Shown one piece after another: positions 3,357 through 42,000 of a stretch of 42,041 nt of DNA. The position numbers and the translations under genes are program-made. The first letter of the stretch is position 1; each line of letters starts with the position of its first letter. The DNA comes from Nitrososphaerota archaeon (GTDB lineage Archaea > Thermoproteota > Nitrososphaeria > Nitrososphaerales > Nitrosopumilaceae), in assembly GCA_022573895.1 (NCBI GenBank), contig JACZTB010000010.1, positions 1-42,041 of the forward strand, in the 5' to 3' direction. The notes under the pieces were generated by a model that had not been told where the DNA came from, did no database searches, and was given only the letters and a program-made list of their open reading frames with translations.

Positions 3357-3965
3357 TTGTTACAATGCCCTCAAATACAAAATTTAGAACCACACAACAA
3401 TATGTTGATTAAATGTAATGTTAGCATATTAGAATATGCAAACATATCTCATTCAGTTACCCTTGTTCCAAGATTGAAATATTCTGTAAATCTGTTAGAT
3501 GATATTGTTGAGATTCTTAAGAAAAAAAGACATGACCTAAAAAAATCAAATAAATCTTTAGTTGCTAATTTTGATGAAACTGATAACACCCATCTAAAAG
3601 CAATTGAACTGGAACGAATTATTGTCTTTTCTCTGGAAATTCTCTATCAAATAAAAAAAAGAACCAGAAGAATATCTGGTATAAACAGCATTCCTCAAGT
3701 CCTTCCTACAGCTATCCAATTGATTAGAACAATTAGTGCACAATTATTTGGTATTGTTCCAAATTGTAGCCAAAAACTATGTGAATTATCAGTCCATCTA
3801 GGAAGTGTAGTACTAGATTCTGCTGCACTCACAAATGCAAGATTTGACTTTAGTCAATCAAATGAAGAATCTTCGACTTTACTTAATGAAGTAAAGTTGA
3901 TGGTAGACTCTAAAATAAGTAAGCAGTACCCTAATCTTGATTTTTTTAAAGTATGCAATACTTGA
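3357..3965 (+). CDS. ESCRT-III-like protein (divergent CdvB paralogue)
   Basis: A protein of about 200 residues. It shows the archaeal ESCRT-III/CdvB pattern: a basic N-terminal helix pair (VNLLDDIVEILKKKRHDLKK), a helix with HLKAIELERIIVFSLEILYQI, and a PQVLPTAIQLIRTISAQLFGIVP...ELSVHLGSVVLDSAAL segment that matches the later CdvB helices. No C-terminal MIT-interacting motif or winged helix is obvious. The gene ends 13 nt inside the next gene, and cdvC follows, so a membrane-remodelling role in division is inferred. The start is uncertain: TTG at 3357 or ATG at 3402. An out-of-frame ATG at 3365 opens a 15-codon frame that stops at once. Confidence 0.65.
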   Translation: MLQCPQIQNLEPHNNMLIKCNVSILEYANISHSVTLVPRLKYSVNLLDDIVEILKKKRHDLKKSNKSLVANFDETDNTHLKAIELERIIVFSLEILYQIKKRTRRISGINSIPQVLPTAIQLIRTISAQLFGIVPNCSQKLCELSVHLGSVVLDSAALTNARFDFSQSNEESSTLLNEVKLMVDSKISKQYPNLDFFKVCNT

Positions 3966-4456
3966 GAATATTAAATTCTACACGAAACTTTTCAAAGGAT
4001 ATTGAACGTATAAGGTCACTCTCTTCAAAAATTAACAAAAAACTATCCGAAACCAAACCTTCTGATGATGACAAAATAAACAAACTCACTTTAGATGAAC
4101 TTCAGGATTTAAACAAAATTGTTGGAATTGCTGATTTTATGCTATGCAAACATGCTGACAAAAAAGAGATTTGCTCAATTCTAAAGCATTTTGTATCAAT
4201 CATCTCTGATACCGCCAACTCCCTTGAGAATTTAGATGATGAAATCTCAGAACTGATAATTTCAGCTGAAGACTCTATAAACAAAGTAAAAGAAATGCAT
4301 GTACATATCTCCGAGAAATCTGATTTCAAAAAGAGATATCATGATGGACCTGATTATGATGAGCATGAAACATGTGCAATTAATTTAACCCATTTTGCCA
4401 CAGAGATTAACACAACAGAATACCAACAAAATTCTCAAGGACATATGCGTAGGTAA
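3953..4456 (+). CDS. Helical protein between ESCRT-III-like gene and cdvC
   Basis: A 167-residue hydrophilic, mostly helical protein with heptad-like stretches (KDIERIRSLSSKINKKLSE, and NSLENLDDEISELIISAEDSINKVKEMH) and a polar tail with several His. Its ATG overlaps the end of the preceding ESCRT-III-like gene by 13 nt, and cdvC begins 5 nt after its stop, so the three are almost certainly translated from one message. It has no family hallmark I can name. It may be a second, very diverged ESCRT-III-type or adaptor protein of the division machinery; that rests on position and helical character only. Confidence 0.6.
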   Translation: MQYLRILNSTRNFSKDIERIRSLSSKINKKLSETKPSDDDKINKLTLDELQDLNKIVGIADFMLCKHADKKEICSILKHFVSIISDTANSLENLDDEISELIISAEDSINKVKEMHVHISEKSDFKKRYHDGPDYDEHETCAINLTHFATEINTTEYQQNSQGHMRR

Positions 4457-4461
4457 TTAAG

Positions 4462-5655
4462 ATGAGTTTAGCCCCCCAAGAATTAGAAAATACTGCTAGT
4501 AAATATGCCTCTGAGGCCATTAAATTTGATTCTCAAGGGGCACGTGGTATGGCGATTTCACATTATCAACAAGCTATTGACGCTCTTGTAAAACTATTAC
4601 AACTTTATCCTCACAGTAAACTAAACCAAATTTACAAAGAAAGATGTACCTCTTATCATAATAGAATTAATGCATTACAACAGGCTGGTGGCGTAGAGCC
4701 TGCAGTTGATCCAAAAGCATCAGAAAAAGATCAAAAGGCATCTGTGCAAAGACAAGAAGAAGAAAATGACTTTGAAGATCTTGTAATGAAAGAAAAACCC
4801 AATGTTACATGGGCTCAAGTAGTCGGTTTGGAAGATGCTAAAAACGCATTACGTGAATCAATCATATATCCTGCTAAAAGACCTGATTTGTTCCCTCTTG
4901 GATGGCCAAAGGGTATGTTACTTTATGGACCTCCTGGAACAGGAAAAACAATGCTTGCGGCTGCTACTGCCAATGAGATGGATGGTTATTTTATTAATGT
5001 AGATGCGTCAGCTATGATGAGCAAATGGTTAGGTGAGGCAGAAAAAAATGTTTCAAAATTATTTTCTATGGCAAGACATTATGCTGAAAAAGAAGGCAAA
5101 CCCGTTATTTTGTTTGTAGATGAAGTTGACTCTTTATTGGGTTCTAGAAACAGTGAAGTAGGTGGAGAAGTAAGAACTAAAAACCAATTCCTAATTGAGA
5201 TGGATGGTGTTAATAGTAAAGGAAAAGATTTGATGCTTTATGTAATTGGAGCCACAAACAAACCCTGGAGTCTTGATTGGCCTTTCCTAAGACGATTCCA
5301 AAAGAGAATTTATGTTTCATTACCATCACTTGAAGCTAGAGAACATCTCTTTAAGGAATACACTGAACCTCTAAGAAAAAGTATTAAAGTAAACCCTGCT
5401 GAATTAGCAAAATTGTTTGATGGATACAGCGCAAGTGATATCAAAGACATCTGTCAAGCTGCACAAATCAAAACAGTTCATGAAATATTCAATTCTCCAA
5501 ACTATCACGAACCTATAGAAGGCGAAATACCTGTGCAACCAAGAGAGCTCACTCCAGCTGATTTCAGGGATATAATGGCAAGAAGAAAACCAAGTGTTTC
5601 AATTGAAATGGTTCGCGCTTATCATAAATGGAGTGAAGAGTTCAAAGCTCTCTAA
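4462..5655 (+). CDS. cdvC: CdvC, Vps4-like AAA+ ATPase of cell division
   Basis: A 397-residue AAA+ ATPase that remodels ESCRT-III (CdvB) filaments during archaeal cytokinesis. The N-terminal MIT domain spans about residues 5-75 (EAIKFDSQGARGMAISHYQQAIDALVKLL). A Glu/Lys-rich linker follows, then the AAA core with Walker A GPPGTGKT at 156-163, Walker B ILFVDE at 216-221, and the RRF arginine-finger segment at 277-279. The C-terminal region (about 330-395) corresponds to the Vps4 small domain and C-terminal helix. The length is normal. It is the last gene of a tight three-gene cluster with an ESCRT-III-like protein, which fits its partner. Start: ATG at 4462, 5 nt after the previous stop. Confidence 0.93.
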   Translation: MSLAPQELENTASKYASEAIKFDSQGARGMAISHYQQAIDALVKLLQLYPHSKLNQIYKERCTSYHNRINALQQAGGVEPAVDPKASEKDQKASVQRQEEENDFEDLVMKEKPNVTWAQVVGLEDAKNALRESIIYPAKRPDLFPLGWPKGMLLYGPPGTGKTMLAAATANEMDGYFINVDASAMMSKWLGEAEKNVSKLFSMARHYAEKEGKPVILFVDEVDSLLGSRNSEVGGEVRTKNQFLIEMDGVNSKGKDLMLYVIGATNKPWSLDWPFLRRFQKRIYVSLPSLEAREHLFKEYTEPLRKSIKVNPAELAKLFDGYSASDIKDICQAAQIKTVHEIFNSPNYHEPIEGEIPVQPRELTPADFRDIMARRKPSVSIEMVRAYHKWSEEFKAL

Positions 5656-18466: not shown

Positions 18467-19480
18467 ATGTACAAAATATCATTAATTACTGGAGATGGCA
18501 TTGGTCCTGAAATATCAGAATCTGCAATTTCTGTATTAAATACAATTAATGACAAACTTGATTTGAAATTTGAAATTACTAAATTATCTGCTGGGGACAA
18601 AGCACTTGAGCAGACAGGAAAAGCACTTCCTGATGAGACCATTAATGTGATAAAACAATCTGATGCATGTTTGAAAGCTCCTGTCGGTGAAAGTGCTGCT
18701 GATGTAATAGTTGTATTAAGAAGAATGCTTGATCTTTATGCCAATATTAGACCTGCAAAATCATATCCTCACATGCCTGCCTTACGTGATGATATTGATA
18801 TGGTGATAGTTCGAGAAAATACAGAAGACCTTTACACAGGCAAAGAATTCAGAGTGGGGGATTCTGCAGTAGCATTAAGGATAATTTCTGAAAGCGCATC
18901 AAAAAGAATTGCAAAATATGCATTTGAAACTGCAAAACAACGAAATTCAAAGAAAAAAGTAACATGTGTTCATAAATCAAATGTTATGAGAGTTACAGAT
19001 GGATTATTTGTAAAAGCATGTACTGATGTTTCAAAAGATTATCCTGAAATTGCATTTGAGCAGATGTATGTGGATGCTTGTGCAATGAATTTAATCCGTC
19101 AACCAGAACAGTTTGATGTTGTAGTCACCACAAATTTGTATGGTGATATTCTCTCTGATGAATCCTCTCAGGTTGTAGGGGGATTAGGAATGGCACCAGC
19201 TGCAAATATTGGTGATAACTTTGCATTGTTTGAACCAGTTCATGGAGCTGCATTTGATATTGCAGGGCAAGACATTGCAAATCCATCCTCCTTCTTACTC
19301 TCTATCAAAATGATGCTTGATTGGCTTGGATCCAAACATAATGATTCAAGATGTTTTCAAGTAGGCCAAAAGTTAGAATCTACAATCTTTGGTTTGGTAA
19401 AATCCGGTATCAAAACCAAGGACATTGGTGGAGACAAGACCACTTCAGAATTTACCAAACATATTACAGATAATCTCTAA
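18467..19480 (+). CDS. leuB: 3-isopropylmalate dehydrogenase-type enzyme
   Basis: A 337-residue beta-decarboxylating dehydrogenase of the isocitrate/isopropylmalate family. It shows ITGDGIGPEI at the N-terminus, LLRxxLDLYANIRP-type text (RRMLDLYANIRPAKSYP), VRENTEDLYTG (substrate-specificity helix), HKSNVMRVTDGLF, and the C-terminal GLGMAPAANIG...FEPVHGAAFDIAGQ. Operon position after leuA favours isopropylmalate as substrate; leuC and leuD are not nearby. The last five codons including the stop are part of a 20-bp sequence found three more times downstream, where a mobile element has used the leuB end as target without damaging it. Confidence 0.88.
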   Translation: MYKISLITGDGIGPEISESAISVLNTINDKLDLKFEITKLSAGDKALEQTGKALPDETINVIKQSDACLKAPVGESAADVIVVLRRMLDLYANIRPAKSYPHMPALRDDIDMVIVRENTEDLYTGKEFRVGDSAVALRIISESASKRIAKYAFETAKQRNSKKKVTCVHKSNVMRVTDGLFVKACTDVSKDYPEIAFEQMYVDACAMNLIRQPEQFDVVVTTNLYGDILSDESSQVVGGLGMAPAANIGDNFALFEPVHGAAFDIAGQDIANPSSFLLSIKMMLDWLGSKHNDSRCFQVGQKLESTIFGLVKSGIKTKDIGGDKTTSEFTKHITDNL

Positions 19481-19483
19481 AAA
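19464..19483. repeat. Target-site repeat copy 1 (leuB end)
   Basis: TTACAGATAATCTCTAAAAA, containing the leuB stop codon. Identical copies lie at 22259 and 23189, and a one-mismatch copy at 23606. The core ACAGATAATCTCTAA (19466-19480) is 15 bp, the size of a casposon target-site duplication. Confidence 0.9.
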
Positions 19484-19558
19484 GGCAACGCCCCCCCTTT
19501 GCGAGTAATTTTACGACGGTTAATCATGTTATATTGTACGTTATGATTTGTTGGAAAG
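19481..19558. repeat. Left terminal inverted repeat of the casposon
   Basis: It starts AAAGGCAACG, then seven C, TTTGCG. It ends inward with GTTATGATTTGTTGGAAAG. Its order (A-run, C-run, CATAAC/GTTATG, TTTGTTGGAAA) matches the inverted right end at 22183-22260 over about 75 bp, with many differences. Confidence 0.7.
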
Positions 19559-19590
19559 TATTGAAATAATCAAAATACAAAAATTTTTTG

Positions 19591-20202
19591 ATGGCAAATA
19601 TTTCCTGTGTTCTGTTTGATCTAGGCGGAGTTATTGTAAACTGGCATGATTCATGGTTGATACAAGAAGTATGTAATGAGTTTCAATTACAAAAAGAAAA
19701 ATTATCTGAAGAATATCACAAAAATCTTCCAGATATTACAACTGGAAGAATAAACGAAAAAGAATTTTGGTACAACATTGGAAAGGAACTTGAATCATCA
19801 AAATTGATGAATCTGAACGAATCACTTTTGGATAAAATATTTCGAAAACGTGTTTCATTAAATAATTCTGTTATTTCTCTCTCTAGAAATTTATCTCAAA
19901 AAGGTGTAACTGTTGGGATTTTATCCAACACTGAACGTGTAACTTATTCTGTAGTTGAGGATTTGGTCTCTTTAAATCATTTCAAGTACAAATTTCTATC
20001 CTATGAGATAGGTCATTTGAAACCAGATCCTGAGATATACAAATACGTAATTGACAACATACCATTTCCTAAAGAAGAATTATTTTTTATAGATGATCTC
20101 AAACCTAATGTTGAATCTGCGCGTTCTGCTGGAATGGATTCAGTGCAGTATTTTGATTATGATGAACTTGTAAAGGAATGTCATAATCGTAAACTCATAT
20201 GA
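19591..20202 (+). CDS. HAD-superfamily hydrolase, casposon cargo
   Basis: A 203-residue HAD-IA type hydrolase. Motif I is FDLGGVIVNW with the nucleophile Asp10; motif II is GILSNTE; motif III has Lys in GHLKPDPEIY; motif IV is FFIDDLKPNV. The second Asp of motif I is replaced (D-L-G-G-V), as in YihX-like sugar-phosphate phosphatases. The natural substrate is unknown. It begins 32 nt inside the left inverted repeat, and its stop overlaps the ATG of the Cas1 fragment (ATGA), so it is carried by the mobile element. An upstream TTG adds one residue; the ATG at 19591 is preferred. Confidence 0.83.
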   Translation: MANISCVLFDLGGVIVNWHDSWLIQEVCNEFQLQKEKLSEEYHKNLPDITTGRINEKEFWYNIGKELESSKLMNLNESLLDKIFRKRVSLNNSVISLSRNLSQKGVTVGILSNTERVTYSVVEDLVSLNHFKYKFLSYEIGHLKPDPEIYKYVIDNIPFPKEELFFIDDLKPNVESARSAGMDSVQYFDYDELVKECHNRKLI

Positions 20203-20447
20203 CACTAAAAGGTCAGCAAAATCATTACAACACAAAATTTCTCAAAGGCTATGGTCACTCCATCTCAGTAAAAAATTCTAAAATAATTCTAAAAAATAAC
20301 TACAATCCTTTCTCAGAACCACAAACAGAAGAATGGTTTATCAGAGATATGCCATACGATAGAATAGTTCTTCAGGGAAAAGGATACATCTCTACTGAGA
20401 GTTTGTCATTACTATCACACAAGGCAGAAATTAAAAGAAGATGGTAA
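20199..20447 (+). pseudogene. Cas1-like casposase, N-terminal fragment
   Basis: The frame starts MTLKGQQNHYNTKFLKGYGH and continues through ISVKNSKIILKNN, EEWFIRDMPYDRIVLQGKGYIS and TESLSLLS. This is the N-terminal beta domain of Cas1 as seen in archaeal casposases. The homology stops at about residue 70, around 20415-20425, where the sequence becomes polymerase text in another frame. The all-helical C-terminal domain with the catalytic Glu, His and Asp is missing, so it cannot integrate DNA. It overlaps the HAD gene by 4 nt. The assignment rests on recognition of the Cas1 N-terminus plus the adjacent PolB and inverted repeats. Confidence 0.75.
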
Positions 20448-21045
20448 TCCCTTGCAATTACCACTAAAGGTAATTCTAAACTCAATTTATGGGAAAACTG
20501 CCCAAAGGATAGGAAACAGGATTGGTAACCTGTACAATCCTGTAATTTGCGCTACAATTACTGGTCATGCAAGGGCAATTTTGTATGATTTTGTCATGAA
20601 AAATGGTTTAGAGAAAGATGTGGTCTCTTTTGCTACTGATTCTATACTTTCAACAAAAAAACTCAATGTAAATTCAACAAAGATAGGCGGATGGAAGTTT
20701 GAAAAATCTGCAAAGGATACCTTTGTTGTTTAAAATGGAATAAACAGAATGAATGACAAGTGGAAAAAACGTGGCATCTTTTCATACAAAGGAAAAAAGT
20801 TTGAACAACTCGATACAGAAGTTATAGATGGAAACATCTACATGATTTACGAGGAGAAAAAACCAAACACGCTTAGAGCATCAATTAATTCTGGCAAGAT
20901 AAATCAAATAGGAAAATTTGATATTCGGAAAAGGAAGATTAATCTAAATGCTGATCAAAAACGGTATTGGTCTGGACAGAGATTAAAATCAATTAATGAT
21001 AGAATCATGAATGTTTCAGTCCCTTGGAATTTGGATATGATTTGA
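20422..21045 (+). pseudogene. Family B DNA polymerase, C-terminal fragment with stop
   Basis: The frame begins RQKLKEDGNPLQLPLKVILN, whose KVILNSIYGKT is PolB motif B, followed by VVSFATDSILSTKKL (motif C, A-T-D-S in place of D-T-D-S) and GKFDIRK...LNADQKRYWSGQ toward the C-terminus. The exonuclease domain and motif A are absent. A TAA at 20731-20733 sits where related proteins would have Q-N-G-I-x-R, so a CAA to TAA change is likely; the frame continues unchanged to 21045. Upstream it is joined directly to the Cas1 fragment, so one deletion removed the end of cas1 and the start of polB. This is clearly a pseudogene. Confidence 0.8.
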
Positions 21046-21076
21046 AATTATTTTTTGTGAAGGATAAGAATTTTAA
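21041..21076 (+). repeat. Direct repeat flanking a small gene, copy 1
   Basis: TTTGAAATTATTTTTTGTGA and the following 16 nt recur, with a few changes, at 21340-21375. The copies flank the 70-residue gene at 21102-21314. This could be the footprint of a duplication or of an insertion within the casposon. Confidence 0.7.
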
Positions 21077-21101
21077 AAAAGGATGTATACATTACAAAAT
21101 T

Positions 21102-21314
21102 ATGACTGAATATATCATAACTCCATTTAATGAAATTAAACTAGTTGGTAATTGGAGGGAAGCTGGAATGAGAGAACATATGACTTGGTATGAAGCTGAA
21201 GGTGAAGATTGCAAGATAAAATTGGTAAGGGATAAGGAAGAAGATGTCTATGAAATTGGAAAAGGTGAAATGATCAAAGTTGATTATCAATATGTGCACA
21301 TACCTTTTCGATAA
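21102..21314 (+). CDS. Small unknown protein in the casposon, 70 aa
   Basis: ATG at 21102 (MTEYIITPFNEIKLVGNWRE). The protein is charged, with alternating strands (EDCKIKLVRDKEEDVYEIGKG) and the end VDYQYVHIPFR, which suggests a small beta-rich fold. A longer reading from 21024 runs through polymerase sequence and is less likely. It lies between two 36-bp direct repeats. No family recognised. Location suggests accessory cargo or a broken neighbour gene of the element. Confidence 0.5.
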   Translation: MTEYIITPFNEIKLVGNWREAGMREHMTWYEAEGEDCKIKLVRDKEEDVYEIGKGEMIKVDYQYVHIPFR

Positions 21315-21339
21315 ATCAGATTTTTAAAGGATAAATTGT

Positions 21340-21375
21340 TTTGAAATTATTTTTTGGGAAGGATGAGAATTGAAA
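21340..21375 (+). repeat. Direct repeat flanking a small gene, copy 2
   Basis: TTTGAAATTATTTTTTGGGA and the bases after it match copy 1 at 21041 with about four differences over 36 nt. Confidence 0.7.
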
Positions 21376-21439
21376 ATCCATATCCTCTGAGAAATTTTAC
21401 GTTGTAGTGATTTCTCTTTTCTTTAAGAGTCAATTATGA

Positions 21440-22018
21440 CTAGGACACATCTTTGCGTAATTCATCAAATCTATCTACATATTCTTTGAAATGCTTGTCA
21501 AATTGTTTAGGTGTACCAACCTTTCCCAAATACACATGATTATGAGAACCCATTTTTGCTATGACTGGTTTTAGGGCATTAAAAATTTTTTGTCGTGCAT
21601 TTAGTTGTGCTAATCTCTTTTTTTCAAATTTACTTCGTCCTTTACACGGAAAAGATTTTCTAAAAAAAATATCCTCTACTGTTGTTTGAGCCATTCGTGC
21701 AAATTCTTCAGTTAGATCAAATGCACCTTGAAAAAATTTTAATAGTTTTTCATTTTCACTAACTGGCCAAGATTCTCTACTAAAAGTTGCAATAGTTGGG
21801 TCAAACATTGCACTTATTCTAATATTGATTATTTCATAACTATCTACTTGATTTGAATATCTTAATTCGTATCTAGGTTGTAGTGTAGATCCGAATTCTA
21901 TTGTATCGGAATCTGAATTTTCTTGGATATGTTCTAACCCTATTTGAAATTCCTTTGTCCAAGGTATGAGTTTATCATCTGAACCTTGTGCAACCGTTAT
22001 GCCTATCGAACCACTCAT
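21440..22018 (-). CDS. Unknown casposon cargo protein, 192 aa
   Basis: ATG at 22018 and a single intact frame on the strand opposite to cas1/polB. The N-terminal half is beta-like (GSIGITVAQGSDDKLIPWTK, then TLQPRYELRYSNQVDSYEII). The C-terminal half is basic and helical (RSKFEKKRLAQLNARQKIFN, then a GSHNHVYLGKVGTPKQFDKHF segment). No membrane segment or signal peptide. I recognise no family. The intact frame beside decayed cas1 and polB suggests that it is either selected or more recent. It is inside the inverted repeats and hence cargo by position. Confidence 0.65.
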   Translation of the reverse strand: MSGSIGITVAQGSDDKLIPWTKEFQIGLEHIQENSDSDTIEFGSTLQPRYELRYSNQVDSYEIINIRISAMFDPTIATFSRESWPVSENEKLLKFFQGAFDLTEEFARMAQTTVEDIFFRKSFPCKGRSKFEKKRLAQLNARQKIFNALKPVIAKMGSHNHVYLGKVGTPKQFDKHFKEYVDRFDELRKDVS

Positions 22019-22052
22019 ATCTATTTCACATTTTACTTTGAATTAAAAATTT

Positions 22053-22139
22053 GCAAGACTGAAAGTGCCTTAGTATCTCAACATGTCGCAGTATAGCCGT
22101 TATGGGCGTGTGATCTTTTTTCAAAACCTTCAGTCTTGC
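22053..22139. repeat. Subterminal inverted repeat of casposon
   Basis: GCAAGACTGAA (22053-22063) and its exact inverse TTCAGTCTTGC (22129-22139) enclose 65 nt without a gene. The next element downstream has a near-identical pair (23023 and 23112), so this is a shared feature of the right halves. Confidence 0.7.
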
Positions 22140-22182
22140 TTGTTGCAACAAACGTCATTACTTCCATCATTACTAAAATACA

Positions 22183-22260
22183 ATTTCCAACAAACAAACT
22201 CACGTCATAACGCAAGTCATAACAAACTTTTCAGTCACGAAAAGGGGGGAGACCCTTTTT
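22183..22260. repeat. Right terminal inverted repeat of the casposon
   Basis: From ATTTCCAACAAACAAACTC inward to CACGAAAA, six G, AGACCCTTTTT at the tip. Inverted, it aligns with the left end of the next element (22276-22350) along its whole length, including GTTTGTTTGTTGGA, and more loosely with its own left end. Confidence 0.75.
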
Positions 22261-22278
22261 ACAGATAATCTCTAAAAA
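22259..22278. repeat. Target-site repeat copy 2
   Basis: Exact copy of the 20-bp leuB-end sequence at 19464-19483. It separates the casposon from the second element. Confidence 0.92.
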
Positions 22279-22444
22279 TAGTATGCCCCCTTTCTACGCT
22301 TGAAAAGTCCTACTAATCCAGATTATAATGTGAAGTTTGTTTGTTGGAGATTTTTGAAAAGTAATCATTATGAAATCTATGCTAGTTAGATTATTTCGTG
22401 ATCCATAGTAAGATTACGAAAAATGAAAATTATGAATGTTAATT

Positions 22445-22523
22445 TGCGGAAACTGAGAGGGCAAAGTGGATGTTGAATCGCCCTCGAGGTTGTGTTGACC
22501 TTAACCTCGAGTCAGCTTCCGCA
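22445..22523 (+). ncRNA. Possible three-way-junction RNA or DNA structure
   Basis: Nested complementary segments: TGCGGAA (22445-22451) with TTCCGCA (22517-22523), then CTGA (22453-22456) with TCAG (22512-22515). Inside are two hairpins: GAGGGC (22457-22462) with GCCCTC (22480-22485), and GAGGTT (22486-22491) with AACCTC (22503-22508). The last can extend to CTCGAGGTT/AACCTCGAG by opening the neighbour. It is higher in GC than its surroundings. It lacks tRNA T-arm and D-arm sequences. The strand is not determined, because the structure is symmetric in DNA. Confidence 0.5.
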
Positions 22524-22679
22524 GACATAATTAACAATTCATTACTAAAAAATAACATGTGTTTTGAATAATGTACATTCACAACCATTACGTTCACCGC
22601 AATATGACACTTCCAATGACAATACGGTAATGAATGGTGACATATTTAGCTAACATTCTTGGAGTTTCATCTGAATGCC

Positions 22680-22790
22680 TTAGTCAAGTTGTTCAGGATG
22701 CCCTTTTCCACGCAGTGCAAACAAAACTATTGCCATTGTTATTGCAACTCCTGCAGCTGCACCAAATGCTGCTATTCCTGCTTCTGCCAT
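22680..22790 (-). CDS. 36-aa single-span membrane protein
   Basis: ATG at 22790, TAA at 22680-22682. The peptide starts MAEAGIAAFGAAAGVAITMA, continues through a hydrophobic run to VLFAL, and then has a basic RGKGH stop-transfer and a short polar tail. This is one clean transmembrane segment of about 22 residues, Ala- and Gly-rich. Codon choice (GCA, GGA, GTT) is like that of chromosomal genes. It is inside the second mobile element. The function is unknown; a small subunit or toxin-like peptide are both possible. Confidence 0.5.
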   Translation of the reverse strand: MAEAGIAAFGAAAGVAITMAIVLFALRGKGHPEQLD

Positions 22791-23022
22791 GAAACAGTTA
22801 GTGCAAAATTAACAATAAACATGACGGTGCCAAAATGAAAAATCTGTTTAATTTTTTTTGATTATCTTTACAATAACAAAGAAATTTCAACATATCATTC
22901 TGGTGCCTATTATATTTACAATAATATTTTTCAAAGTATTCAGACAAGACACTCCTCACAAATCAGACAAATGTTCAGTCTATCATTGATCTAATTTAAT
23001 ATTAAATATTGTATGCAATACA

Positions 23023-23123
23023 TGAAGACTGAAACAAACCTGCATCCACAAATCCTATTGTCATGTACAATGTCATGGATTCATCTCTATATGAGTAAAG
23101 GGCAGTAAGAATTTCAGTCTTCA
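23023..23123. repeat. Subterminal inverted repeat of second element
   Basis: TGAAGACTGAAA (23023-23034) and its exact inverse TTTCAGTCTTCA (23112-23123) enclose 77 nt. The AAGACTGAA core is the same as in the casposon pair at 22053/22129. Confidence 0.7.
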
Positions 23124-23188
23124 ATAACCTGATTTATTGAATCCCTAAGTGTTGTTTGATTTTACCAACATCAGGGGGAATTCTATTT

Positions 23189-23208
23189 TTACAGATAATC
23201 TCTAAAAA
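23189..23208. repeat. Target-site repeat copy 3
   Basis: Exact copy of the 20-bp leuB-end sequence; right boundary of the second element. Confidence 0.92.
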
Positions 23209-23276
23209 TTATATTCTTCCTTATCATGCCTGATTTTTCCTAATCCTTTATTATCAAGAAACTTTTTGCTAGTTTA

Positions 23277-23609
23277 ATGGCTTCAGAAAATTTTGATGAA
23301 GAGTGTCTACTTAAAGATATAAACTGCTCTAAATTATCTGCAGCAATTACAAAACTTACCTTCAGTTGGAATAGTTATTCAAATCCTGTTAGAGAAGCAC
23401 ATGAACTTATGGATAGATATCGAAAACTTTCTCTAGAAATTTTAGAGTATGAACAAAGAATGGGTTCTAAACTTAACAAGTATCAGAGAGCTAAACTTGA
23501 TACTTCGATGGAAGATTTAGCAAAAGTAATTCCTTACATGGAAAACAAAATTGAACCTTCTGAAATTTTAGAAAATAAGTCAATTAACAAAAGGGATTTC
23601 CATTTTTAG
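23277..23609 (+). CDS. Tandem paralogue 1, helical protein of 110 aa
   Basis: The protein begins MASENFDEECLLKDINCSKL and is helical and highly charged, with HELMDRYRKLSLEILEYEQRMGS and an end KVIPYMENKIEPSE shared with the next gene. About half of the residues are identical between the two. Both have the same upstream block (TTTTTCCTAATCC, then CTTTATTATCAAGAAAC), with a TATA-like CTTTATTAT about 27 nt before the ATG. The last codons (NKSINKRDFHF) differ from the paralogue, and the stop TAG lies inside repeat copy 4, so this C-terminus was changed at a junction. No family recognised. Confidence 0.6.
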   Translation: MASENFDEECLLKDINCSKLSAAITKLTFSWNSYSNPVREAHELMDRYRKLSLEILEYEQRMGSKLNKYQRAKLDTSMEDLAKVIPYMENKIEPSEILENKSINKRDFHF

Positions 23610-23625
23610 AGATAATCTCTAAAAA
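23606..23625. repeat. Target-site repeat copy 4 (one mismatch)
   Basis: TTAGAGATAATCTCTAAAAA differs from the other copies at one base (C to G). The change also makes AGAGATAATCTCT, a near-perfect palindrome. It contains the stop codon of the upstream paralogue. Confidence 0.9.
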
Positions 23626-23693
23626 TTTTGTTCTCCCCCATTGTGCGTAATTTTTCCTAATCCTTTATTATCAAGAAACTTTTTGCTAATTTA

Positions 23694-24005
23694 ATGGCTT
23701 CAGAAAATTTCGATGAAGAAGGTCTACTGAAAGTTATAAAAACTTTCGAGTTATCTGAAAAAATTACAATACTTAATTGGAATTGGAATAATTATTCAGA
23801 TTCCATTAAACAAGCACATGAACTAATGAGTGAAGGCCAAAAACTTTTTCTAGAAATTTCCGAGTATGAACAAAGAATGGGGTCCAATCTTAGTATGTAC
23901 CAGAAAAATAAAATCAATGAAGCTGTAGAAGATTTAGGTAAACTAATTCCTTACATGAAAAATAAAATCAAACCTTCTGAAAGTTTAAAAAATTTAGTCG
24001 ATTAG
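23694..24005 (+). CDS. Tandem paralogue 2, helical protein of 103 aa
   Basis: A paralogue of the preceding gene, starting MASENFDEEGLLKVIKTFEL, with the shared HELM, LEISEYEQRMGSNLSMYQK and KLIPYMKNKIKPSE segments. It is soluble and mostly helical with no cysteine. It probably represents the original gene, as its C-terminus is not cut by a repeat. The 417-bp spacing of repeat copies 3 and 4 equals the duplication unit. The function is unknown; such short helical proteins can be regulators or partner-binding proteins. Confidence 0.6.
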   Translation: MASENFDEEGLLKVIKTFELSEKITILNWNWNNYSDSIKQAHELMSEGQKLFLEISEYEQRMGSNLSMYQKNKINEAVEDLGKLIPYMKNKIKPSESLKNLVD

Positions 24006-24139
24006 TAAATCCTAACTTATTTCCTGTGTTAATTTCACTGTAGAATCACACAAAAATACTCATAGTTTCTATCTATATGGAATTGCTGATTTTTCTTGTT
24101 AACCTCTCAAAAGTGTAAAAAATTTGTTATGTGTCTTTT

Positions 24140-24501
24140 CTAGTCTTTTCTTTTTTTGACATCTGATGCTGGCGGATTCAGTGACCAGAAAAACATGGCC
24201 AATCCTATTGGAATCATGATTAACACCGCTGCAACAATTGAGATTGCATAAAAACCTGGATCTAAACCTAGAAAAAAAGGACCTGGAAATACTGCGTATA
24301 ACCACAAAAATCCAACAAAAATCAGAACAACCTTATTCTTTTTTACTAGTTTCTTCCATCCTAGTCTTCGTTTGTAAATATAACAATTCTTGCAACGTGT
24401 TCTATCATCTGTCATACAAGATGTGCAGCAGTTTTTTCACAGAAATAACATATTCTATCTCCAAATGCTGATCCACAAAAATCACATTTGTACACCAACA
24501 T
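24140..24501 (-). pseudogene. Zinc-ribbon membrane protein, frameshifted at an A6 run
   Basis: Two overlapping frames look like one gene. From ATG 24501 the first part reads MLVYKCDFCGSAFGDRICYF and C-E-K. The second, closed at 24140, supplies in its own frame C-C-T-S-C-M-T-D-D-R-T-R-C-K-N-C and then two hydrophobic spans (VVLIFVGFLWLYAVFPGPFF and a later AISIVAAVLIMIPIGLAMFF). They join across a run of six A (minus strand; plus 24432-24437). One extra A would give a continuous E-K-N-C-C protein with eight or more zinc ligands. As written, the first frame ends at a TGA overlapping an ATG (ATGA) that could restart the 91-residue second part. It may be a sequencing error, true mutation or frameshifting site. 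Confidence 0.7.
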
Positions 24502-39656: not shown

Positions 39657-40907
39657 ATGAAATTAGACATAACAGACATTGAAACATCAGCTTACCAGAA
39701 CTTTTTAGATTATATTCGAAATGAACAAACTAGAATAAAATATTCAAGTGATCTAAAAAAATTCCTAGATTTAGTTCCAGATAAAATTTACAAAGACAAT
39801 GACATTGAATTTACTGACAAGACAGAAGCATTTGTAACTTTAGTTAGAGCAGATGTTAAAGTTGGCAAATCAATAATCAAAGCATACGTTAGAGAATTAA
39901 AAAAGAAGATTGATGATGATTCCATATCTCCATCTAGAGTATTGAATTTAATCAAACCAATCAAAGCTCTTTTTGCTGCAAACGATATTGATTTTTCATG
40001 GCAGAAAATAAACAAATCAATTCCTAAACCTGGTAAATCAAAAGACAAGGCATACACAAGAGAACAACTGCAGATGTTAATGGCAAATGCAACTAATCTA
40101 GTTGATAAAATTATGATTACACTATGTTCTTCAGCTGGATTCCGAGTTGAAGCTTGGGATTATTTTACATGGGATGATGTTGTGTTTTTTTATAATGATG
40201 ATAATTCTCTGAAAGGTGGAGCATTAAGGATCTATCATGGAGATGATGAGGAATATTGGACTCACTTTACACCCGAAGCTGGAAAGTATCTATTGCTATA
40301 CAAAGAATCTTGGAAATCTAGATTTATGAGATATCCAAAAGAGACTGACCCTTTGGTAGTCTCTGTAAGAATTCTACATCCATCCAGACTTGGCAAGAAA
40401 GGCATGGAGTCTAGAATGAATGAACTTGCAAAAAAGTGTGGATTTAGACCTAAATTAGAGCCTGGACAAAAACGTCATAAAGTGATGCTTGATCATGGCA
40501 TGAGAAAATACTGTAATACCATGATGAGACGAGCTAAAGTTAATTTTGCAGATAAAGAAGACATGCAAGGACGAAATCCAGGCGGGCAAGAAGGAAGTTA
40601 TGAGCGATATGAAGAACAAGACTTTGAGCGATTCAGTGAATATCAAAAGGCAATTCCTTTCTTAACTATCTCTGATGAGGAAAGAATACGACTAGAAAAT
40701 GAGAAATTAAAACAAGAAAATACTGAGAAAAAACAATTTGAAGAGAAAATCAAGGTTCTAGAGCAAAGACAAGGAGAACTTGAAAATAGTCAAAAAGAAT
40801 ATGAATCCATCAAACCCGATTTAGATAAAATGCTTTTAGAATATGTTGAAGAGCTTGGAGAAGATTTCTTCAAACAAGTGTTTGGTGAAAAAACTTTCAA
40901 AAATTAA
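39657..40907 (+). CDS. Tyrosine recombinase with coiled-coil tail
   Basis: A 416-residue site-specific recombinase of the archaeal integrase type. A SAM-like core-binding domain lies at about 10-120. The catalytic domain has Arg163 in SSAGFRVEAW, His280/Arg283 in DHGMRKYCNT, and a candidate nucleophile Tyr315 in GSYERY (Tyr318 is the alternative). Residues about 345-395 form a coiled coil (ERIRLENEKLKQENTEKKQF and on), unusual for phage integrases. It presumably moves or resolves a genetic element whose other parts lie beyond the window. A long non-coding repeat region starts right at its stop codon. Confidence 0.82.
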   Translation: MKLDITDIETSAYQNFLDYIRNEQTRIKYSSDLKKFLDLVPDKIYKDNDIEFTDKTEAFVTLVRADVKVGKSIIKAYVRELKKKIDDDSISPSRVLNLIKPIKALFAANDIDFSWQKINKSIPKPGKSKDKAYTREQLQMLMANATNLVDKIMITLCSSAGFRVEAWDYFTWDDVVFFYNDDNSLKGGALRIYHGDDEEYWTHFTPEAGKYLLLYKESWKSRFMRYPKETDPLVVSVRILHPSRLGKKGMESRMNELAKKCGFRPKLEPGQKRHKVMLDHGMRKYCNTMMRRAKVNFADKEDMQGRNPGGQEGSYERYEEQDFERFSEYQKAIPFLTISDEERIRLENEKLKQENTEKKQFEEKIKVLEQRQGELENSQKEYESIKPDLDKMLLEYVEELGEDFFKQVFGEKTFKN

Positions 40908-41175
40908 TTTATAAAAAATTCAAAATAATTTATAAATAAAAATAATTTATAACAAATTTTTTTCTAAGATTTGTTAAAGAAATGTTAAGCTTAAGATCTT
41001 ATCAGGTACAAATTTATTTTTTCTTAATCTAAGCTTGCAAAAGCTTAGCAAAATCTTTAAGCTAAGCTTAAGATAAGCTAAGCTTAGAATCAAGGATAAT
41101 CTTGTAAGCTAAGCTTAACTTCATGAAAATATCAAGTCTTAACAAGATCTTAGCTAAGCTTAGCCAAGACTTGGC
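40907..41175 (+). ncRNA. Array unit 1 (AAGCTTAGC theme)
   Basis: A TATA-rich header (40907-40958) is followed by seven AAGCTT-centred palindromic copies (40987, 41031, 41041, 41064, 41080, 41111, 41156), usually as GCTAAGCTTAG. It ends in a perfect hairpin GCCAAG-A-CTTGGC (41163-41175) followed by a T-rich stretch. This is consistent with a transcribed structured RNA of about 200 nt or with a cluster of protein-binding sites. The strand is assumed from the TATA header and terminal hairpin. Confidence 0.4.
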
Positions 41176-41263
41176 ATGTTTTTATTATCTTTACAAAGAA
41201 TGAATTGTGAATTTTTTATCATTTTATGATTTGTTTATAAACAAGAATTATTTTTTAAACTTT

Positions 41264-41566
41264 AAAATTAATTTATAAATAACTTAAAATTATTTATAAA
41301 TAATAATTATTTATAACAAATTGTTTTTGAAGTTTTTACTAAGATTTATCAAGCTTCAAACTGATTTAGGCACAGTCAAGTTTTAAGTTATTTTAAAATT
41401 GAAGTTTATCTTAATGAAACTTGAAGATTCTTTAAGAAAGTCAGGGTCTAGAATCGAGCCTATATGAAGAAAACATCAGTTTTCTTCAAGTTGATCTTCA
41501 AAAGCTTCAAGATTCTTGAAGATTTTCCAAGATTATGTTTTTTTACTGGTTAACTTGGGAAACCTT
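41264..41566 (+). ncRNA. Array unit 2 (CTTCAAG/CTTGAAG theme)
   Basis: The same skeleton as unit 1, but the theme is CTTCAAG and its inverse: CAAGCTTCAAA (41350), ACTTGAAGATTC (41419), TTCTTCAAG (41482), AGCTTCAAGATTCTTGAAGA (41503-41522). It ends in a long hairpin TTTCCAAG ... CTTGGGAAA (41525-41563, one G-T pair). The same arrangement with a different complementary sequence is what compensatory change in an RNA would look like. Confidence 0.4.
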
Positions 41567-41809
41567 TTGATTGTTGAAATAGCAATTCTTCTTAAAGGTT
41601 TTACATATTTTGGATAACCAACCTTAGAATCAAGAAATATACGATTGTTAGTCGTAAAATTTTTTATAAATAATTTTGAATTATTTATAAATAAAATTAA
41701 TTTATAACAAATTTGTTTATAGGATTTTACTGAGGTTCAGTAAACTTAATGACACTGTTAGGCACGAGTCAGTTTTAACTTCATTAAAATTCATAAGTTT
41801 ACTAAAATA

Positions 41810-41884
41810 AAATAAAAAACGTTCTAAAGTCATTAAAAAACGTCATCAAGTCATTAAAAAACGCTCTAAAATCATTAAAAAAAA
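41810..41884. repeat. 21-bp tandem repeats, set 1
   Basis: CATTAAAAAACG begins at 41831 and 41852. A leading variant (AAATAAAAAACG) lies at 41810 and a trailing one at 41873: a period of exactly 21 bp, two DNA helical turns. Confidence 0.85.
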
Positions 41885-41917
41885 TTTATGCAGAATCGAG
41901 GCTAATCCAGCATTTTG

Positions 41918-41937
41918 TTAAGCTAAGCTTAGCTTAA
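41918..41937. repeat. Perfect 20-bp palindrome
   Basis: TTAAGCTAAGCTTAGCTTAA is its own reverse complement. It is built from the unit 1 theme but located in unit 3. Confidence 0.9.
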
Positions 41938-41945
41938 TGACTTAA

Positions 41946-42000
41946 TTTAATGACTTTATGACTTGATTTAATGACTTTATGACTTGATTTAATGACTTTT
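41946..42000. repeat. 21-bp tandem repeats, set 2
   Basis: TTTAATGACTTTATGACTTG plus A repeats at 41946 and 41967 exactly, with a partial third copy from 41988. The period is again 21 bp. Confidence 0.88.

Follow-up and report, generated by a model that had tools for sequence, protein, structure and literature searches.

Repeats and coding remnants downstream of leuB

The 42,041-nucleotide stretch of DNA analyzed here (the window) belongs to a 1.8-Mb genome of a marine ammonia-oxidising archaeon, and it carries a row of decayed casposons 3' of its leuB gene. Casposons are transposons moved by a Cas1 enzyme; CRISPR is supposed to descend from them, and its adaptation machinery in particular has been proposed to come from casposons. 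The genome was searched by pattern and by protein; the data are mostly metagenome-assembled genomes (MAGs), in which contigs are expected to break at such repeats. The leuB gene and the repeats derived from its 3' end are arranged as follows.

18467 to 19480, plus strand: leuB-type isopropylmalate/isocitrate dehydrogenase gene, intact (Pfam PF00180, 1.4e-102); its last codons and stop codon form the casposon target
19447 to 19463, plus strand: presumed leader side of the target; the sequence is conserved both where leuB ends are occupied and in the copies outside leuB
19464 to 19483, plus strand: repeat R1, target-site duplication that includes the leuB stop codon; its length is about 16 bp, apart from an A-run common with the inverted end
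22259 to 22278, plus strand: repeat R2, exact
23189 to 23208, plus strand: repeat R3, exact
23606 to 23625, plus strand: repeat R4, one mismatch

The 20-mer TTACAGATAATCTCTAAAAA is found exactly at 19464, 22259, and 23189, and with one mismatch at 23606. Its first copy is the 3' end of leuB including the stop codon, and the leuB reading frame is restored exactly at the insertion point. The 16-bp core of the repeat occurs eight times in the genome, versus none for the reversed control, and the size of the duplication (about 16 bp, with an ambiguous A-run) agrees with the about 14 to 15 bp by which casposons are recognized. Within the stack, only the leuB-proximal copy of the repeat has the sequence at 19447 to 19463 beside it; by analogy with work on the A. 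boonei casposase (PMC6614799), this sequence presumably acts as the leader side.

Unit E1 (19484 to 22258, 2.8 kb) has the exact 20-bp repeats R1 and R2 of the leuB 3' end on its two sides and contains the following features.

19479 to 19566, plus strand: left inverted end, from end-to-end alignment
19588 to 20202, plus strand: HAD-family hydrolase gene, intact, cargo of E1 (Pfam HAD_2, 8.5e-15)
20199 to 20447, plus strand: open reading frame (ORF) with a Cas1 N-terminal fragment, from alignment to intact Cas1
20420 (start approximate) to 21045, plus strand: PolB C-terminal fragment, ORFs 20452 to 20733 and 20749 to 21045 in one frame
21341 to 21433, minus strand: second Cas1 N-terminal fragment, opposite orientation, 61% identity over residues 1 to 31, translation LTLKEKRNHYNVKFLRGYGFSI
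21440 to 22018, minus strand: 192-aa gene next to and upstream of the second Cas1 fragment, with weak similarity to a gene on contig C41 (28% identity, E 1e-5)
22174 to 22263, minus strand: right inverted end, from alignment; a 90% identical end lies on contig C52

The two ends are imperfect but share AAAAAGG, a run of at least six Cs, and TTTGTTGGAAA. When 19479 to 19568 was aligned with the reverse complement of 22174 to 22263, the local score was 23.5, a value reached by none of 1,000 crude shuffles in two-base blocks (mean, 12.3; maximum, 21). The coding fragments were identified by alignment to intact homologues. Positions 20199 to 20423 correspond to about residues 1 to 75 of an intact 344-aa Cas1 encoded on C41 of the same genome (76% identity, E 2e-34), and the PolB piece (about 20420 to 21036) corresponds to residues 380 to 587, approximately, of the 594-aa PolB of a casposon in the relative G093 (48% identity, E 6e-55), with a single in-frame stop codon, TAA, at 20731 to 20733. 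None of the catalytic residues of Cas1 is present in the Cas1 fragments of the window. The preliminary description of this locus had suggested profile searches of the two plus-strand fragments, and these succeeded for one of them: the 93-aa PolB piece alone matches phrog_11768 (DNA polymerase, 2e-16), PHROGs being the only profile library in which PolB was clear, whereas the Cas1 fragment alone has no relevant match in Pfam, PHROGs, PADLOC, or NCBIfam profiles because it ends before most of the profiled region.

The second Cas1 start bears on how E1 arose. In intact casposons of the leuB group, Cas1 lies near one end only: at the far end and reading toward leuB in G061, and at the leuB end and reading away from it in G093. 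Two Cas1 starts that read inward are therefore most simply explained by two opposed elements, and E1 is most likely a pair of casposons in opposite orientation that were fused by deletion. The 192-aa gene occupies the position of the gene that precedes the intact Cas1 on C41. The preliminary description had seen at 19464 to 22278 one decayed casposon, with a direct repeat at the leuB end, imperfect inverted ends sharing an A-run, a C-run, and the above motif, Cas1-type and PolB-type coding sequence inside, and an unharmed host gene. All of these components hold up, as does casposon DNA at the leuB stop codon; the single element does not, being most likely a two-element fusion and only one unit of a stack.

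The ancestral site and the stack of units

In sister species, the leuB stop codon is followed directly either by the gene found here at 24140 to 24415 or by a zinc-ribbon gene, and the junction CTAGTCTTTTC at 24140 is common to the window and to the empty site of G048; about 4.66 kb has thus been added after leuB in the window. Three or four units are stacked between leuB and this ancestral neighbour, beginning with E1; the part beyond E1 is organized as follows.

22279 to 23188, no strand assigned: unit E2, 0.9 kb, no long gene, left end like the other inverted ends
23209 to 23605, plus strand: unit E3, 0.4 kb, ORF 23277 to 23609 (110 aa), 79% identical to E4
23626 to 24139, plus strand: unit E4, 0.5 kb, ORF 23694 to 24005 (103 aa), right border unclear
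24140 to 24415, minus strand: ancestral right-hand neighbour of leuB and end of the inserted stack; adjoins leuB in G013 and others

The left end of E2 matches the right end of E1 with a score of 29 (shuffle maximum, 17.5), and its right end resembles other inverted ends only in the terminal 15 to 20 bp. No clear repeat was found closing E4 on its far side, and a homologue of the E3/E4 ORF lies directly 3' of leuB in G040, after TTACAGATAACCTCTAAAAA. A segment of E2 (22684 to 22887) has 94.6% identity to C51:19549-19752 and may contain a minus-strand ORF of 37 codons.

The leuB end as a recurrent target in the genus

Intact elements occupy the same site in relatives. In G061, whose genome is a single contig and 99% complete, a 5.9-kb element at leuB encodes Cas1 (356 aa), PolB (628 aa), and a trypsin-like protein; its duplication, ACTGACAATCTCTAAAAA, is perfect at both ends, and a second element starts after it. 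The best solved-structure match of the G061 Cas1 is 6opm (E 5e-33), listed as Cas1, which we take to be a casposase structure. The invariant columns of the intact Cas1 proteins include E159, H229, D241, and E244 (C41 numbering), the residues expected to be catalytic in the Cas1 family. Small ORFs precede polB in G061 and in G093, and the corresponding region is deleted in the window. In G093, an intact 11-kb casposon with Cas1 and PolB lies at leuB between perfect duplications (contig C58), and on contig C61 of the same MAG the leuB end (one single-nucleotide polymorphism apart in the compared stretch) is joined straight to the second element of C58. The C61 allele corresponds to the pre-insertion state of the leuB end, and the occurrence of occupied and pre-insertion alleles within one MAG may be an indirect sign of mobility. 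In Nitrosopumilus sp. NIOZ-UU110, leuB is followed by an element with ends of the same kind and an intact Cas1 gene, whose product is 78% identical to the C41 Cas1.

Orthologues of leuB are present in 23 of the 31 genomes searched. A pattern search of 95 genomes of the genus returned 53 leuB-type ends (a copy outside leuB, on C11, and the second G093 allele were excluded), and full-length leuB was confirmed for part of the genomes behind them. A casposon-type end follows leuB in 25 of the 53 by a loose rule and in 24 by a stricter inverted-end pattern, the background of the latter being 0.15% of 61,529 random stop-like sites; G061 and G085 hold further occupied ends outside the returns of this search. 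Other species of the genus have empty leuB ends, which lack the motif. The duplication is spelled as in the local leuB, namely ACTGATAATTTATAA in G002, ACTGACAATCTCTAA in G061 and G093, and ACAGATAATCTCTAA in the window genome. This co-variation with the host gene indicates a true target-site duplication, not a sequence simply carried by the element. Decay is seen at other leuB ends as well: a perfect duplication surrounds a Cas1-truncated element in G002, and in G005 (L033) ACTGATAATTTGTAG occurs twice with only the 17-bp GAGGGGTTTCTCTTTTT between the copies, which looks like a remnant end, nearly all of the element having been lost.

Across the genus, casposons have landed at the leuB end repeatedly and not just once, in agreement with the preliminary proposal of leuB as a casposon target. 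The empty sites expected in related strains were also found, and relatives with the same ends at leuB do carry Cas1 and PolB, two of the elements being intact. The target had been put forward without knowledge of an earlier account; we likewise found no report joining casposons with leuB, isopropylmalate dehydrogenase, or MITEs in the open-access literature searched.

Family placement

The inverted ends at leuB are of the same type as those of the casposons at EF-2 in G035 and G038, the intact Cas1 proteins of the leuB group are 61 to 66% identical to the EF-2 casposases, and the intact PolB proteins of G061 and G093 match PF03175; these features together place the leuB elements in casposon family 1. 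The published targets of this family are ef-2, the phosphoribosylamine-glycine ligase gene (purD), and one intergenic site, and tandem insertion is already known for it (PMC6563490). E1 is inserted at leuB and not at ef-2, the commonest published but not universal target; since the family is already known at other sites (PMC6563490), this does not disqualify the assignment. As a target, leuB would be an addition to the genes ef-2 and purD. Read by eye and without statistics, the targets at EF-2 and at leuB have approximately TAYTGATAANNNNTAA in common, with the stop codon at its end.

The Nitrosopumilus family 1 casposons NitAR1-C1 and NitNF5-C1/C2 (Krupovic 2014, 2019) come from the same genus and likewise combine Cas1 and a protein-primed-type PolB with inverted ends, a duplication of about 15 bp at the 3' end of a protein gene, and tandem insertion. 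They differ in their target (ef-2 or purD as opposed to leuB), and the window copy is a decayed fusion in a longer stack. In the Cas1 tree, the leuB-site proteins of G093 and NIOZ-UU110 and the C41 protein form one supported clade (96/85), apart from a clade of Nitrosopumilus and Nitrosarchaeum EF-2 proteins (99/91), some of which are of unknown target. The G061 Cas1 falls outside both clades, so that use of leuB may have arisen more than once. Such leuB-type and EF-2-type casposases are natural pairs for finding what sets target choice. MetMaz-C1 of Methanosarcina mazei resembles the present case in that one target is reused, giving tandem elements separated only by the duplication, but it belongs to another casposase family and has another target site; in vivo movement of M. 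mazei casposons has been shown (PMC10359463, PMC9939771).

Proposed mechanism and alternative explanations

The explanation that we prefer (probability, roughly 0.92) is that family 1 casposons stacked up in tandem at the leuB 3' end and decayed. Cas1, acting as the casposase, would insert an inverted-ended element between the leader side of leuB and the target of about 16 bp formed by the last codons and stop codon; gap repair would then copy the target, leuB would retain its exact end, and every new element would meet the same leader and target again. New elements would consequently enter beside leuB, while older ones would be pushed outward and decay. A Cas1 gene at another locus of the genome might also act on such elements in trans. 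E1 would be what remains of two casposons in opposite orientation after deletion of their interiors and of the junction between them, so that at either end a Cas1 start still points inward. The layout, with repeats between shrinking inserts beside a fixed leader, recalls a CRISPR array: the repeat-insert-repeat order, the one-sided leader, the Cas1-made duplications, and the degenerate far repeats are alike, but the inserts here are transposon remnants of 0.4 to 2.8 kb, and Cas2, an effector, and any sign of immunity are absent. To our knowledge, few natural casposon insertion sites have been described, and at the Nitrosopumilus leuB ends one and the same site is available dozens of times, in occupied, half-decayed, and empty form.

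Several observations weigh against the casposon stack or narrow it. The window holds no intact Cas1 or PolB, and the two G093 alleles could partly reflect assembly of mixed strains. E2's own ends match weakly (score of 17.0, equalled by 12 of 1,000 shuffles), those of E3 and E4 are short, and the inverted ends of E3 are weaker than those of E1, which makes a casposon origin of these units less sure than that of E1. Members of the E3/E4 ORF family are also found on C79 and in G072, at loci other than leuB and with no inverted ends, and E4 may accordingly be resident DNA. The presence of this family directly after leuB in G040 and away from leuB weakens the case for E3 and E4 as independent mini-casposons; they may be old mini-casposons or resident DNA duplicated between repeats.

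The units need not have decayed in place, as they could have been inserted already shrunken, as non-autonomous mini-casposons moved in trans by a Cas1 encoded elsewhere in the genome. The intact C41 Cas1 behind its leuB-like target and the perfect duplication around the truncated element of G002 are compatible with this, most partial Cas1 matches in the genus begin at residue 1, as expected if internal deletions spare the ends, and movement of mini-casposons in trans occurs in M. mazei (PMC10359463). Yet an identical deletion derivative was found at no two sites, and the stop codon in the PolB piece points to decay of its own, leaving insertion in shrunken form a possible but rather doubtful origin. 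That the repeats are the attL and attR sites of a tyrosine-recombinase element, with the Cas1 and PolB pieces as unrelated passengers, is very improbable: many thaumarchaeal elements do integrate at gene 3' ends by this means (PMC6563490), and one leuB-like copy, on C51, has a XerC-like gene nearby, but 19484 to 24140 contains no recombinase gene, no tyrosine or serine recombinase or classical transposase was found among the E1 ORFs tested, and inverted ends are present. Where relatives have elements with these borders, the elements encode Cas1 and PolB, and no recombinase-like ORF was seen between the borders in G061 or G093. We give equally little credence to an origin without a transposon, in which the repeats and C-rich motifs would be a conserved terminator or the product of local tandem duplication at the leuB end. 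The 79% tandem duplication of E3 and E4, bounded by repeats, would suit such an origin; many sister species, however, have leuB without the motif, which recurs as the inverted ends at EF-2, and the repeats follow each host's leuB spelling around Cas1/PolB elements. This explanation is contradicted for E1 and possible only for E3 and E4.

Copies of the leuB end and casposon genes elsewhere

The sequence ATTTACCAAACAGATTACAGATAATCTCTAAAAA (34 to 35 bp, the last leuB codons and stop codon) recurs with zero to two changes at loci other than leuB in the window genome (G000) and in G059 and G071. The G000 copies are listed below.

C11:5682 (L136)
C36:4113 (L135)
C41:25377 (L012)
C51:5128 (L010)
C52:4908 (L011)
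C90:55018 (L013)

The C41 and C90 copies may be two versions of one locus. Chance likeness over this length is not credible, and the length is close to the leader-plus-target footprint of the A. boonei casposase, mapped from -15 to +14 (PMC6614799). A casposon inverted end follows every copy that could be read further except the one on C11 of G059, and a sequence like GAGTTTAGAATCTAAATTACATTTGAG lies upstream of the copies on C41, C90, and C51, of both G071 copies, and of the G059 copy. We suggest, tentatively and as the less probable case, that the leuB end itself is a portable landing site, copies of which have spread through the genome; casposons would then either take the leader of their target with them when moving or make their own new targets. 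A search on C51 for a landing pad at the end of another element did not show one. A tRNA target at these sites was excluded, the sole tRNA on five contig stretches being a tRNA-Ser 9 kb away. The exceptional G059 copy (L132 2677-4280) lies directly before terminase-like genes of an apparent provirus.

The intact 344-aa Cas1 gene on C41 (L012 18179-19213) adjoins a leuB-like target, and a near full-length PolB gene lies beside another on C11 (L136, about 3408-5129); active casposons may accordingly be present in this genome. A second, distant Cas1 gene with internal stops occurs at C32:151562-152206 (39% identity). Across the genus, partial Cas1 genes are mostly N-terminal and about 70 to 170 residues long, as if elements often lost internal DNA and retained their ends. 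On C23, the two sides of a two-gene segment (L009 1342-1420, 3380-3494) share a short sequence of which C41 has one copy, which suggests another insertion. Near the end of the window, 40891 to 41999 contains several direct and inverted repeats of 70 to 85% identity.

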